A program made the position numbers and the translations under genes. DNA of 55,108 nucleotides. Origin: Lentisphaerae bacterium ADurb.BinA184 (GTDB lineage Bacteria; Verrucomicrobiota; Lentisphaeria; Oligosphaerales; MVZH01). This document shows positions 1,546 to 41,237 of this stretch, piece by piece. How positions within the stretch are numbered: position 1 is the stretch's first letter; each line of letters starts with the position of its first letter. Location: positions 1 through 55,108 of the forward strand of contig MVZH01000003.1 of the NCBI GenBank assembly GCA_002068325.1, given 5' to 3'. The notes beneath the pieces are model-generated. The model was not told the DNA's origin. It was given only the letters and a program-made list of their open reading frames with translations, and made no database searches.

Positions 1546-2535
1546 ATGAGCATAGTCGGCAGACTGACCGCATTCCGGACGCAGGCAATCCTCTTCGGCG
1601 CCGTCCTGGCCATGGCCGCGGCCCCGGCCAGGTGCGAAGTCCGCAATCCGCTCGGCGAGGGCTTCGAGTACGACCTCGGCGCCCTGCGGCGCGTTGACCC
1701 GGCCCTGGTTCTGTTCGAGGAGCACGATCCCGTGAGAGTGCCGTTGCGCGAGCCGGCCGGGCTGGCCGTTGACGCGGCGGGCCGGCTCATCGTCGTCGGC
1801 GATGGACGCCTGGTCGTGCTCGACCGCGCCGGCCGGGAATTGCGGAGTTCGCAACTCGCGGGCGACCCGACGTGCGTGGCGGCCGACCCCGACGGTACGC
1901 TGTTCGTCGGGCTGCGCGACCGTCTCCAGGTTCTCCCCGGCGTGGACGAGGGCGCGACGCCGGGGCTGTGGGAAAGCCTGGGCGAACGCGCGCGGGTGAC
2001 CGGGCTGGCGGCCGGCGACGACCAAGTCTGGGTGGCGGACGCCGGGCAGCGGATCGTGCACACGTTCAGCAAGTCGGGGAAACGAGGGCCTGTCATCGGG
2101 GAGGCGGGAAGCAGGGACGAGCCGCCGCACTTCATCGTTCCCAGTCCGTTCTTTGACGTGGGGATCGGCCCGGACGAGACCCTCTGGGTCGTCAATCCCG
2201 GACGGCACCGGGTGGAGAACTACCGCGCCGACGGGACGCCAGTCTCGTCCTGGGGACAGGCCTCGATGCGGGTCGAGGGGTTCTGCGGATGCTGCAACCC
2301 GAGCCACCTGGCCGTGCGGAGGGACGGCTCGTTCATCACCAGCGAGAAGGGGCTGGTGCGCGTCAAACTGTACGGCCCGACCGGCGAGTTCCGCGGGGTG
2401 GTGGCGCCGCCGGACGCCTTCGACGAGGGGACCGTCGGGCTTGACCTGGCGGCGGACGCCGACGGGGACGTGCTGGTCCTGGATGCCGTGCGGCGTCAGA
2501 TCCGCGTGTTCAGGCAGAAGGTTTCGAAGCCATGA
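1546..2535 (+). CDS. exported NHL-repeat beta-propeller protein with a CGCC motif
   Basis: The protein is 329 aa from an ATG preceded by AGGA. The N-terminus is a Sec signal peptide ending near AAPARC. The rest is a run of NHL-type propeller blades, with repeats such as GLAVDAAGRLIVV, VAADPDGTLFVG and LDLAADADGDVLVL. Near the end of blade four is FCGCCNPSH, with Cys247, Cys249, Cys250 and His254, a cluster that could bind metal, haem or copper; this is inference. The stop overlaps the next start as ATGA, so it is translationally coupled to the polyferredoxin. Propellers of this kind often act as scaffolds or sensors outside the membrane. In this operon it may be the periplasmic face of an electron-transfer device. 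A longer reading starting at 1294 runs through the transposase remnant and is rejected. Confidence 0.75.
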   Translation: MSIVGRLTAFRTQAILFGAVLAMAAAPARCEVRNPLGEGFEYDLGALRRVDPALVLFEEHDPVRVPLREPAGLAVDAAGRLIVVGDGRLVVLDRAGRELRSSQLAGDPTCVAADPDGTLFVGLRDRLQVLPGVDEGATPGLWESLGERARVTGLAAGDDQVWVADAGQRIVHTFSKSGKRGPVIGEAGSRDEPPHFIVPSPFFDVGIGPDETLWVVNPGRHRVENYRADGTPVSSWGQASMRVEGFCGCCNPSHLAVRRDGSFITSEKGLVRVKLYGPTGEFRGVVAPPDAFDEGTVGLDLAADADGDVLVLDAVRRQIRVFRQKVSKP

Positions 2536-3125
2536 GTACCGATGCGCATGACAAGGCGGGCTGGCCCGGGGCGGTGCGCAACGCGTTCCGGGTGGCCGCC
2601 GTGCTGGCGCTGGGCGCGGTGACGGGGCTGTGCGCGGTGCGCGGCCAGGTGCAACCCGCGGTGTGGCAACTCGATCCGCAGTTGTGCATCCAGTGCGGCC
2701 GCTGCGCGACGGAATGCGTCCTGGCGCCCTCGGCGGTCAAGTGCGTGCACGCCTTCGACCTGTGCGGGTACTGCGACCTGTGCGGGGGCTACCTGCAACC
2801 CCAAGTCACGGAGTTCACCACCGCGGCCGAACACCAGCTGTGCCCGACCGGGGCGATCGTGCGCCGCTTCGTCGAAGAGCCGTACTTCGAGTATACGATC
2901 ATCGAGGAGCTGTGTGTGGGGTGCGGCCGCTGCGTCAAGGGCTGCAATGCGTTCGGGAACAGCTCGTTGCACCTGCAGGTCCGGCACGACCGCTGCGTGA
3001 ACTGTAACGAATGCGCGATCGCACGACGCTGCCCGGCAAAGGCCTACCGACGGGTGCCGGCTGGACGCCCCTACCTGATCAAGGGTCGGGAGACGACGGC
3101 GGAACCCGACGGGCAGACCCGCTGA
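2532..3125 (+). CDS. membrane-anchored polyferredoxin (4Fe-4S)
   Basis: The protein is 197 aa; its ATG overlaps the NHL stop by 4 nt. An N-terminal hydrophobic segment (about residues 18-36) anchors or exports it. Cysteine sets follow: C52-C55-C58-C62, C71, C78-C81-C84, C104-P, C128-C131-C134-C138 and C155-C158-C161-C167. This is enough for about four [4Fe-4S] clusters, as in the ferredoxin subunits of DMSO-reductase/NrfC-like and Rnf-like systems. The role is electron transfer between its two neighbours: the exported propeller upstream and the NapH-like membrane protein downstream. No catalytic molybdopterin or flavin subunit is present, so the electron acceptor is unknown. It is followed 59 nt later by the R1 repeat, which separates it from the third gene. 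Confidence 0.8.
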   Translation: MSTDAHDKAGWPGAVRNAFRVAAVLALGAVTGLCAVRGQVQPAVWQLDPQLCIQCGRCATECVLAPSAVKCVHAFDLCGYCDLCGGYLQPQVTEFTTAAEHQLCPTGAIVRRFVEEPYFEYTIIEELCVGCGRCVKGCNAFGNSSLHLQVRHDRCVNCNECAIARRCPAKAYRRVPAGRPYLIKGRETTAEPDGQTR

Positions 3126-3184
3126 CCCGAAGGGCCAAAGGCCAGTACTCTTCACTTGGCGAAGCAGACCGTGGTCAAGAAAAA

Positions 3185-3398
3185 CTTGCAGAACCCCGGC
3201 ATGAGTGGGCCGGGATGCAACCCGAGCCTCCACCGGCCTCGACATGGACTGCCGTCTGTCGGGCTGGAGGGACGACCTCCGTGTCGTCCGGGTTCCGCGG
3301 CGGCAGACCGGGTCTTCGGGTATAACCTGGCGGACACGGAGGGCCGCCCTCCATCGCACGAGGCAGTTGTCGTCCGCGGGGGTTCTGCAAGCGCCTCA
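3185..3398 (+). repeat. R1 element, copy A (MITE-like, 214 bp)
   Basis: The ends are perfect 13-bp inverted repeats, CTTGCAGAACCCC at 3185-3197 and GGGGTTCTGCAAG at 3379-3391. They are followed by CGCCTCA, which is conserved among copies. Inside are two hairpins. The left one is GGACGAC/GTCGTCC with loop CTCCGT (3270-3289). The right one is GGCGGAC/GGCCGCC with loop ACGGAG (3329-3348) and one stem mismatch here. The two loops are exact reverse complements. There is no transposase. It has the same orientation as copies C and E. Confidence 0.85.
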
Positions 3399-3447
3399 GA
3401 AGACTACGGCAAGGACACGGGGGCGGCACCCATTGTCTCTACCCTGG
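3399..3447. repeat. R3 short hairpin repeat, copy A
   Basis: About 48 bp containing GACTACGGCAAGGACA, a G-run and CCCATTGTCTCTACCCTGG. It resembles 47799-47850, which reads GACGACGGCAAAGACA, a G-run and CCCTTTGTCTCCACCCTGA. It lies exactly between R1 copy A and R2 copy A, so three repeat families abut here. The hairpin is weaker in this copy than in the other. Confidence 0.5.
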
Positions 3448-3632
3448 CCCGAGCCATTCATGAACAAAGAGCCAACGGAGATAACGGAGGTATATCTCAT
3501 TGATTCGCAATAGCCTACGAATCAATGATGAAGCCGTCGGTTTCCACGCCTCCCAACCGCACGTAGGGTGGTAACCCCCTGCAACGCAAACCCTTCGTTG
3601 CCTCCGTTTCCTCTTTGTGAATAATTCAGGCT
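3448..3632 (+). repeat. R2 element, copy A (185-bp inverted-repeat element)
   Basis: The element is 185 bp, the same length as the copy at 22161-22345, which is in the opposite orientation. The ends are imperfect inverted repeats built on ATTCA..CAAAGAG and CTCTTTG..GAAT. An internal hairpin, TTGATTCG/CGAATCAA, is perfect over 8 bp. It is visibly more AT-rich than its surroundings. It has no coding capacity. The remaining stretch to 3759 holds nothing I can name; the whole 3126-3759 gap is therefore mostly R1-R3-R2. Confidence 0.75.
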
Positions 3633-3759
3633 GGTCTCTGCCTTCGTCTAATGCGTGAACAGCAGTGGGCCGAAGCCCTGAAGCCGCAAGCACGGGGTTC
3701 GGGCCGGTGCGCAGGCACGGGCCGGCGACAGACGGCTGGGCAACGATGACGGGAACGAC

Positions 3760-5103
3760 ATGACACGGCGGCCAAACCTACTGTATGCGGGGCGTCGGCG
3801 GCGACTGGCGATGGCCGGGGCGGCGGGGCTTCTCACCGCGGCGGCCCACGCCACGGAACGCTTCCCGCGTCCCGAGTTCCGCACCGAGCATCCCCTGCCG
3901 ACGCTGACGGAACCCGTGCCGCGCATCCTCCTTTTCGACAAGTTGGATGTGGCGGTGCTGGCCGTGGCGCTGGGCCTGGCGGCGTACCTGGTGCTGCGGA
4001 GGCGCTCGCGCCGCAGCCTCGTCCTGCTGATGCTCTTCTCGCTGCTGTACTTCGGGTTCTGGCGCGGCGGCTGTGTCTGCCCGGTGGGAAGCGTGCAAAA
4101 CGTTGCCCTGGCGTTGTTCGGCGACGGGTATGCGATCCCGCTGTCGGCGATTGCGTTCTTCGCCCTGCCGCTGGTCGCCGCGCTGGCGTTCGGGCGGGTG
4201 TTCTGCGCCGCCGTCTGCCCGTTGGGGATCGTGCAGGACCTGGTGGCGGTGCGGCCGCTGCGGCTGCCGGGATGGCTGGACGGCGCGTTGCGGGTCGTGC
4301 CCTACGCAGTTCTGGGCGTGAGCGTTCTGCTAGCGGCCCTCGGGGCCGGGTTCATGGTCTGCCGCTACGACCCCTTTGTCGGGCTGTTCCGGCTCAGCGC
4401 CTCGACGGCGATGCTGGCCGGCGCGGCCGTCCTGCTGGCGGTCGGGGTGGTGGTGGCGCGCCCCTACTGCCGGTACCTGTGTCCGTACGGGGTGCTGCTG
4501 GGGTGGTTCTCGCGGCTGTCGCTGGTGCATGCGACGGTCACCCCGGGCGAGTGCCTGAACTGCCCGCTGTGCGAACGGGCCTGCCCGGTCAACGCCATCC
4601 GCCGGCCCACTCCGGAACGGCTCCCGGAACCGCGCGGCACCGCCATCCGCCGGCTGGCGCGGCTGCTCGTGCTGCTGCCGGTGCTCGGGCTGGCGGGCGC
4701 CTGGGCGGGGGCCCGGTTGCACGGCTGGGCGGCGGGGGCGCATCCAACCGTCCGCCTGATCCGCCAGATGGGGATCGAACACCTGGACACCACCGCGCCG
4801 CCGACCATGGAAAGCGAGACGTTCCGCGGCACCGGCGTCTCGAACCGCCAGCTGTATGACGAGGCGGTGCGCACCCAGGCGCGCTTCGCCACCGGGTGTA
4901 CGGCGCTGGGGGCCTTCCTCGGACTGGCGCTGGGAGCGAAACTGGTCAGCCTGTCGGTCTTCCGCAGCCGGACGGGCCACGAACCGGACCGCGCGTGGTG
5001 CCTGAGCTGCGGGCGCTGCTTCGCCAGCTGCCCGGTCGAACGGAAGCGGCGCGAGGGGGGCGCGGTGGTCAGGCCGGGCGCAGATCGAGGAAGCGCTGGC
5101 TGA
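3760..5103 (+). CDS. NapH/NosR-like membrane iron-sulfur protein
   Basis: The protein is 447 aa with several transmembrane helices (about 56-74, 83-101, 126-146, 179-199, 216-234, 303-322, 385-405). Cysteine motifs sit at the membrane surface: C105-V-C107-P, FCAAVCP (C149, C153) and CRYLCP (C237, C241). They are followed by one full ferredoxin motif, C265-C268-C271-C275-P. A C-terminal half-motif is C414-C417-C420-C424-P. This is the layout of the NapH and NosR C-terminal family, which pass electrons across or along the inner membrane. It lies 634 nt after the polyferredoxin, separated by repeats, but on the same strand and probably the same pathway. The last 35 bp overlap the end of the convergent phosphoesterase gene. 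The terminal oxidase or reductase it serves is not in the window. Confidence 0.8.
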   Translation: MTRRPNLLYAGRRRRLAMAGAAGLLTAAAHATERFPRPEFRTEHPLPTLTEPVPRILLFDKLDVAVLAVALGLAAYLVLRRRSRRSLVLLMLFSLLYFGFWRGGCVCPVGSVQNVALALFGDGYAIPLSAIAFFALPLVAALAFGRVFCAAVCPLGIVQDLVAVRPLRLPGWLDGALRVVPYAVLGVSVLLAALGAGFMVCRYDPFVGLFRLSASTAMLAGAAVLLAVGVVVARPYCRYLCPYGVLLGWFSRLSLVHATVTPGECLNCPLCERACPVNAIRRPTPERLPEPRGTAIRRLARLLVLLPVLGLAGAWAGARLHGWAAGAHPTVRLIRQMGIEHLDTTAPPTMESETFRGTGVSNRQLYDEAVRTQARFATGCTALGAFLGLALGAKLVSLSVFRSRTGHEPDRAWCLSCGRCFASCPVERKRREGGAVVRPGADRGSAG

Positions 5104-13317: not shown

Positions 13318-13530
13318 TGAGGCGCTTGCAAAACCCCCGCAGACGACAGCTGCCTCGTGCGGTGGAGGGCGGACCTCCGTGTCCGCCAGGTCATACCCGA
13401 AGACGCGGTCTGCAGCGGCGGAACCCGGACGACACGGAGGTCGTCCCTCCAGCCCGGCAGACGGCAGTCCTTGTCGAGGCCGGTGGAGGCCCGGACTCCG
13501 TCCCGGCGACTCACGCCGGGGTTCTGCAAG
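13318..13530 (-). repeat. R1 element, copy B (reverse orientation)
   Basis: A 213-bp copy inverted relative to copies A and C. The ends are CTTGCAaAACCCC (13325-13337, one mismatch, preceded by TGAGGCG) and GGGGTTCTGCAAG (13518-13530). Both internal hairpins are perfect in this copy (GGCGGAC/GTCCGCC and GGACGAC/GTCGTCC). The element ends 17 nt before the ATG of the 1988-residue gene, so it fills that gene's leader. The long reading frame through it is accidental. Confidence 0.85.
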
Positions 13531-13547
13531 TCCCTCGGATGCCGGCG

Positions 13548-22160: not shown

Positions 22161-22345
22161 AGCCTGGGTTATTCACAAAGAGGAAACGGAGGCAACGAAG
22201 GGTTTGCGTTGCAGGAGGTTACCACCCCACGTGCGGTTGGGCGGCGCGGAAAGCGACGGCTCTCGCAGTGGCTCGCAGGCTATTGCAAACCAATGAGATA
22301 TACTTCCGTTATCTCCGTTGCCTCTTTGTTCATGAATAACTCGGG
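22161..22345 (-). repeat. R2 element, copy B (reverse orientation)
   Basis: 185 bp, the same length as copy A. The outer ends, GTTATTCA..CAAAGAGG and CCTCTTTG..TGAATAAC, are inverted repeats. Read in the orientation of copy A, the inner hairpin TTGATTCG/CGAATCAA has become TTGGTTTG/CGAGCCAC. Most pairs survive as G-C or G-U. The copy fills the gap between the MFS and URO-D-family genes. Confidence 0.75.
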
Positions 22346-40931: not shown

Positions 40932-41144
40932 CTTGCAGAACCCTGGCATGAGTGGCCGGGACGGAGCCCGGGCCTCCACCGGCCTCCACAAGGACTGCTG
41001 TCGGTCGGGCTGGAGGGACGACCTCCGTGTCGTCCGGGTTCCCTTGCGGGAGACCGGATTCTCGGGTATGACTTGGCGGACACGGAGGTCCGCCCTCCAT
41101 CGCACGCGGCAGTTGTTGTCGGCTGGGGTTCTGCAAGCGCCTCA
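40932..41144 (+). repeat. R1 element, copy C
   Basis: A 213-bp copy. The ends are CTTGCAGAACCCT (40932-40944, one mismatch) and GGGGTTCTGCAAG (41125-41137), then CGCCTCA. Both hairpins are perfect: GGACGAC/GTCGTCC at 41016-41035 and GGCGGAC/GTCCGCC at 41075-41094, with complementary loops. It sits between bamA and the lptG-type gene, upstream of the latter. Confidence 0.88.
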
Positions 41145-41237
41145 GGGTTCAGATTTCAGGGACACGCAACGGACTGTGGTTGAATGCAGTGCTTGCTGCG
41201 CCGGCAGGCGGCGACCTGACACCTGACACATCAGACC

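Follow-up and report, generated by a model that had tools for sequence, protein, structure and literature searches.

A trio of NHL propeller, polyferredoxin and NapH-like membrane protein as the candidate core of a haem-free electron-transfer system

Several described systems come close to the locus reported here. NapGH and MauM/MauN combine an exported polyferredoxin carrying four cluster motifs with a multi-helix membrane iron-sulfur (Fe-S) protein carrying CX3CP motifs. In NosR/NosZ a membrane Fe-S protein serves an extracytoplasmic beta-propeller protein, while SOQ1 and NHLRC2, in which a thioredoxin-like domain accompanies an NHL domain, are tied to thiol chemistry. Finally, the Bfu (HydABC-like) family comprises bifurcating enzymes whose B2-cluster histidine is absent from non-bifurcating homologs, and in 2022 it still held 17 BfuB clades without an assigned function, according to Schut et al. 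2022 (PMC9304861). Here we describe three genes, encoding an exported NHL propeller, a polyferredoxin and a NapH/NosR-like membrane Fe-S protein, that lie in the window, i.e. the whole 55,108-nucleotide contig (C3) of the draft genome of Lentisphaerae bacterium ADurb.BinA184 (4.76 Mb, 82% complete). Taken together with the genes found beside them in relatives, they would supply the core, in the membrane and outside the cytoplasm, of a haem-free Fe-S electron wire leading from a Bfu-like NADH/ferredoxin enzyme to periplasmic propellers, a reading to which we assign a probability of roughly 0.55. The kinds of protein involved are all known and their combination was found in no literature match; most subscription journals lie outside the coverage of these searches, which therefore lend weak evidence to the suggestion of an earlier annotation made from the DNA letters alone (the sequence-only reading) that the system is undescribed.

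A conserved trio within a larger operon

The three genes share the forward strand. The propeller gene (1546..2535; 329 residues, six blades, recognised from the translation, the PF01436 match, the structural model and the homologs) is followed by the gene for a 197-residue polyferredoxin (2532..3125) of NapG-like layout, with four [4Fe-4S] cysteine sets and no twin arginine. The stop codon of the former overlaps the start codon of the latter by four bases (ATGA, 2532..2535), so that the translational coupling proposed by the sequence-only reading is plausible. The same reading had placed all three genes correctly, and its count of about 17 polyferredoxin cysteines agrees with a total of 18, one in the N-terminal hydrophobic stretch and 17 beyond it. 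The NapH/NosR-like gene (3760..5103) encodes a protein of 447 residues with 16 cysteines, eight hydrophobic stretches in a crude hydropathy scan and Fer4_5 plus ferredoxin motifs; it is not coupled to the others in the window, since it is separated from the polyferredoxin gene by 634 bases consisting mostly of two dispersed repeats. Its scores lie far under the cut-offs of the NapH/MauN model TIGR02163 (51.1 vs 213 bits), the NapH model PRK09477 (42.8 vs 234) and the NosR model NF046105 (37.2 vs 1000), and for RnfB (TIGR01944, cut-off 68.7 bits) the polyferredoxin and the NapH-like protein reach 21.6 and 21.9 bits, respectively. The likeness to NapGH and MauM/MauN lies in the architecture of the pair, whereas the partners differ, being propellers and a Bfu-like pair; the locus departs from NosR/NosZ both in the NosR score and in its NHL propeller, which has no conserved set of histidines.

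Relatives were collected in two sets that have some genomes in common (e.g. L066): a protein search across 194 genomes of the phylum, with E<=1e-15 as the threshold for a propeller match, and a named-genome set consisting of the best 80 of at least 555 loci, gathered partly by patterns that included the GCCNP motif. Counts of neighbouring genes refer to loci with room, as defined by preset fixed distances, and the locus survey excludes the gene contexts of G377, G277, G365, G294, G300 and G256:C111. The propeller was matched in 22 of the 194 genomes, the window's own counted, which is far beyond chance. Polyferredoxin and NapH-like genes stand beside it in 19 of 21 loci of the phylum sample (L029 and L044 stop at a contig edge), and among the named loci the polyferredoxin gene adjoins the propeller gene in 76/77 and a NapH-like gene is present in 71/71. 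When loci were selected by the polyferredoxin and had the window's order, the propeller adjoined in 10 of 13; the other three are L162, L164 and L166, the last two of which end near the polyferredoxin gene. The redox module put forward by the sequence-only reading thus recurs as a conserved trio, within the phylum sample and in other phyla.

As a full system, however, the trio falls short, since the relatives add at least two PQQ-like propellers and a Bfu-type pair to the conserved core. The order of the operon is PQQ-like propeller(s), NHL propeller, a small cysteine protein of the twin-arginine translocation (Tat) type, polyferredoxin, NapH-like protein, membrane-anchored PQQ-like propeller, fused NuoE/NuoF (NuoEF) and a [2Fe-2S]/GltD-like subunit. 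Among the named loci a PQQ-like propeller lies upstream of the NHL propeller in 74/78, the membrane PQQ-like propeller, usually with two N-terminal hydrophobic stretches, follows in 62/65, NuoEF in 48/53 and the GltD-like gene in 45/52, and the small protein, recognised by a C-x(4-7)-C-x2-C motif, occurs in 50/76, and 45 of these 50 small proteins carry a Tat-like RRx[FL]. In one locus (G139, L035 9467-11854) the PQQ-like and NHL propellers are fused in a single reading frame of 795 residues. By record labels the operon extends to at least nine phyla (Bacteroidota, Aminicenantes, Planctomycetota, Lentisphaerae/Kiritimatiellales/Verrucomicrobia, Latescibacterota, KSB1, Nitrospiraceae, Neomarinimicrobiota and Chlorobiota). 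Most carriers are uncultured; the cultured ones include Marinifilum and Labilibaculum, which makes the operon testable. Recurrent neighbours were judged by eye from the sequences of the 25 commonest other open reading frame families beside the trio, and among these no known terminal reductase was seen and no NapA/NapB-like family stood out, in agreement with the sequence-only reading, which had noted that no known terminal enzyme was present.

A Bfu-like pair and a proposed direction of electron flow

The NuoEF protein of locus L031 matches PF01512 (Nuo51), PF10589 (NADH_4Fe-4S) and PF14697/PF00037 (C-terminal ferredoxin) above cut-off, and residues 11-152 of the same chain match PF01257, the thioredoxin-like [2Fe-2S] domain of BfuC, with 173.8 bits; the SLBB domain PF10531 scores 24.0 bits against a cut-off of 27. 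The GltD-like (BfuA-like) protein of this locus matches PF13510 and PF14691 above cut-off. These are the Pfam families that we take to correspond to the InterPro numbers of the Bfu paper. In the Protein Data Bank (PDB) NuoEF is matched best by NfnB and by subunits of the HydB type, all from bifurcating enzymes, and alignment to 7t2r_B places the B2-cluster histidine in 45/45 and the three cysteines in 45/45 sequences, with a fifth ligand position that is occupied by Arg (14), Cys (11), Lys (11), Thr (8) or Ser (1). Residue conservation across the operon proteins was counted within length limits, which retained, for example, 45 of 48 NuoEF and 39 of 45 GltD-like proteins. The NuoEF copy of the window's genome (contig C367) has the same B2 histidine and cysteines. 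The GltD-like partner matches NfnA-type subunits and is about half as long (473 residues vs 963 for NfnA in the PDB). Because domains, PDB matches and B2-cluster residues agree, we file the pair, by sequence, with the Bfu family, whose BfuCB and BfuA subunits it matches. In common with that family are the NuoE/NuoF unit with its C-terminal ferredoxin domain, the B2 histidine with three cysteines, and the [2Fe-2S] and 4Fe-4S domains of the BfuA-like subunit; the differences are that BfuC and BfuB form one chain here, that the shortened BfuA-like subunit has a GltD/Fer4_20 region, and that the pair is linked to NapGH-like and propeller proteins, whereas the main text of PMC9304861 has none of the terms pqq, naph, propeller or polyferredoxin. 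A link to reductive dehalogenases was rejected, the match to PMC6797604 being a text overlap of 'NaphS2' with 'naph'.

In the mechanism that we favor the Bfu-like pair would oxidise NADH and reduced ferredoxin together in the cytosol, and the electrons would cross the membrane via the NapH-like protein and then pass along the polyferredoxin to the propellers, of which the strongly conserved PQQ-like one would bind the substrate, while the Cys-Cys pair of the NHL propeller would act as a dithiol/disulfide or shape a docking site. The preferred direction is outward, so that an acceptor in the periplasm or outside the cell would be reduced, for which our guesses are sulfur or disulfide compounds first and metal oxides second. 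This direction is itself a guess from the anatomy of the system and from the physiology of Labilibaculum, in which fermentative strains with the full operon (L082 and L106) pass a few per cent of their electrons to Fe(III), and one of them also to Mn(IV), by a route left unexplained in PMC5760507. If the mechanism holds, the Bfu family would gain a third substrate outside the cytosol, and fermenters would gain a cytochrome-free means of electron disposal, a route left open for Labilibaculum (PMC5760507). We suggest, more tentatively and as a possibility that we would not yet call probable, that the operon encodes a haem-free complex for respiration or electron export, widespread among anaerobic bacteria, with a Bfu-type enzyme drawing on NADH and ferredoxin together, a NapGH-like wire and, as terminal reductase, propellers bearing a site of vicinal cysteines.

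Electrons could also run the other way, the PQQ-like and NHL propellers oxidising a periplasmic substrate and the Bfu-like pair bifurcating the incoming electrons to NAD+ and ferredoxin. Bfu enzymes are described as reversible and several third substrates can act as donors (PMC9304861), and the eight-bladed fold of the PQQ-like subunit is common to quinoprotein dehydrogenases and BamB. Import nonetheless appears unlikely to us: the L031 PQQ-like protein falls under the cut-off of the quinoprotein family PF01011 (18.5 vs 26.7 bits), the 25 commonest neighbour families showed no conspicuous PQQ-synthesis gene or further known dehydrogenase, and a donor of low enough potential is hard to name.

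Several observations weigh against the proposed wire from a Bfu-like enzyme to the propellers. Two of the 21 phylum-sample loci (L042 and L045) hold propeller homologs without partners, and among the named loci NuoEF is not beside the trio in 5/53 and the GltD-like gene not in 7/52. A smaller locus type, found in five genomes (G118, G012, G050, G256 and G229), consists of a propeller relative, an exported PhnD-like protein bearing a cysteine motif (PF12974 in the two scanned), a polyferredoxin and a NapH-like protein, and in 5/5 of these loci PQQ-like and NuoEF/GltD-like genes are not beside the core. Judged by gene neighborhood, the Bfu-like cytosolic partner is thus not obligatory, and since the small-type loci keep propeller, polyferredoxin and NapH-like protein without PQQ-like or NuoEF genes, these three, as in the window, are the smallest recurring unit. 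Labilibaculum, moreover, also encodes cytochromes that could explain its metal reduction, so that the link with the operon is one of association only. Lastly, operon parts in the window's genome are spread across five contigs, with a PQQ-like gene of which the beginning lies at the end of C168, a membrane-anchored PQQ-like gene on C8, NuoEF (61% identity) on C367, a contig of 3.3 kb, and a GltD-like gene on C33; the window's polyferredoxin (region 2532-2640) lacks the twin arginine; and TatC, present in 14/14 relatives tested, was not found in the 82%-complete draft, so that the gene may be lost or may lie in the absent 18%. Given this dispersal and the missing twin arginine and TatC, the system of this genome may be in decay or may use another export route. 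An [RK]Rx[FL] motif, which marks a Tat-type signal, occurs at the polyferredoxin N-terminus of 72/76 homologs, and the polyferredoxins of L171 and L172 are without a twin-arginine motif although TatC is present.

The lack of a Bfu-like pair beside the core in the small-type loci also favors a different supply, in which the NapH-like protein and the polyferredoxin would draw on menaquinol as E. coli NapGH does, the Bfu-like pair would act beside them on the quinone pool, and the propellers would be, or would dock, the reductase. In its favor the NapH-like protein matches the NapH/MauN model with E=1e-13, NapGH is a quinol dehydrogenase (PMC5449189), and menaquinone use has been proposed for Nuo-Bfu (PMC9304861). 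The score is, however, far under the cut-off of that model (51 vs 213 bits), and the close association of the locus with a soluble enzyme of the NADH/ferredoxin type (48/53) suggests direct supply; we regard a quinol branch as rather doubtful.

As to the acceptor of the preferred outward wire, the main hint comes from one genus only. In two of the five small-type loci, those of G050 and G256, both of this genus (L195 2840-11998 and L196 760-9036), ArsR, DsrE2, FlpD and HdrA-like genes follow the core, in G050 after two other genes, which hints at sulfur or heterodisulfide chemistry.

The propellers and their conserved sites

The NHL propeller scores 34.9 bits with PF01436 (NHL repeat; cut-off 20), and its model shows an N-terminal helix and six blades, read from the strands, at a mean predicted local distance difference test (pLDDT) value of 90.8. 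NHL domains are its nearest folds, SOQ1 and NHLRC2 among them at Z ~25; unlike these, the protein has no thioredoxin domain, and its cysteine pair lies inside the propeller itself. The cysteines of the window's copy include C30, C110, C247, C249 and C250, and the sequence-only reading had grouped the last three with H254 as a cluster. Of this cluster the vicinal pair C249-C250 (codons 2290..2295, forward strand), inside F-C-G-C-C-N-P, is invariant in the homolog alignment: the motif is covered in 22 of the 23 homologous loci of the phylum sample, each of which has G-C-C-N/S-P there. Both residues are also cysteine in 80/80 named loci, a count that is not independent because these loci were partly selected with the GCCNP pattern, as the 22/22 were not. 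C247 (Cys in 15/22 and 40/80) and H254 (His in 48/80) vary, and 3/81 propellers (the 80 named and the window's) have only two cysteines, so that the suggested four-residue metal or haem site does not hold, and an Fe-S cluster bound by the propeller itself is unlikely. With two invariant cysteines only and no conserved histidine set in the homolog counts, Fe-S and haem centers were both rejected. The position of C110, where a strand begins, holds cysteine in 69/80 named loci and may matter.

Conserved positions are concentrated on the top face of the propeller (32/113 vs 9/78 sites on the bottom, P=0.007), and less strongly so without the stretches used as patterns (22/101 vs 7/74, P=0.04); both tests ignore kinship, and loops were assigned to faces by the usual propeller layout, not by coordinates, from the strands of the model. 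We read this face, on sequence conservation and the model, as a probable binding or redox site around the vicinal pair and not a metal center. Were the propeller instead a metal or redox sensor outside the electron path, it would be in keeping with NHL propellers often being binding domains and with PknD and TRIM proteins appearing among the fold matches, but the proteins that accompany it transfer electrons, conservation does not extend to all four proposed metal ligands, and no regulator-like family occurs in more than 5/80 loci among the 25 commonest neighbour families; we consider such a role very improbable.

Selenocysteine in the motif was rejected: some homologs have an in-frame TGA, yet the translations show the GCC motif intact. 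The propeller homolog of L012 has an in-frame stop near its C-terminus. In L046 (9276-12632) and L047 a propeller relative has two Cys-Cys motifs (STCCG and CGCCNP) and is followed by a cysteine-containing PhnD-like protein. Links to phages, defence systems and plasmids were rejected, as there was no match to PHROGs with the propeller, to PADLOC with the three proteins or in a plasmid search with the polyferredoxin.

The PQQ-like protein of L031 exceeds the cut-off of PF13360 (BamB-like; 79.2 vs 27.6 bits), and its nearest folds include BamB, tetrathionate hydrolase and YxaL (Z ~29-34). These share the fold and differ in context, at 14-20% identity, and the fold gives no function; likeness to tetrathionate hydrolase is a weaker hint of sulfur chemistry, BamB and YxaL being equally near. 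Since BamB is a non-catalytic assembly factor, the propellers might merely dock or assemble the Fe-S proteins, with Cys-Cys as a structural vicinal disulfide. We judge this improbable, as conservation of the PQQ-like protein (60% mean column identity across 29 sequences, including invariant Cys, His, Arg and Gln) looks like that of an active or binding site. Some Bacteroidota loci, L108 (273-8047) among them, have long PQQ-like stretches upstream of the NHL propeller; these are probably several tandem genes, possibly serving different substrates.

Sequences around the trio in the window

Upstream of the propeller gene, positions 914-1225 may encode a small membrane protein of 103 residues, which has no Pfam match. 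The gap between the polyferredoxin and NapH-like genes holds a dispersed repeat of ~215 bases (3184..3398), with further window copies at 13318-13531 and 40932-41145, and a second one of 185 bases (3448..3632), with a further window copy at 22161-22345. With 40 of 280 candidates scored, which makes the counts lower bounds, the genome holds at least 38 further near-copies of the first repeat, at 82-93% identity, and at least three further copies of the second.

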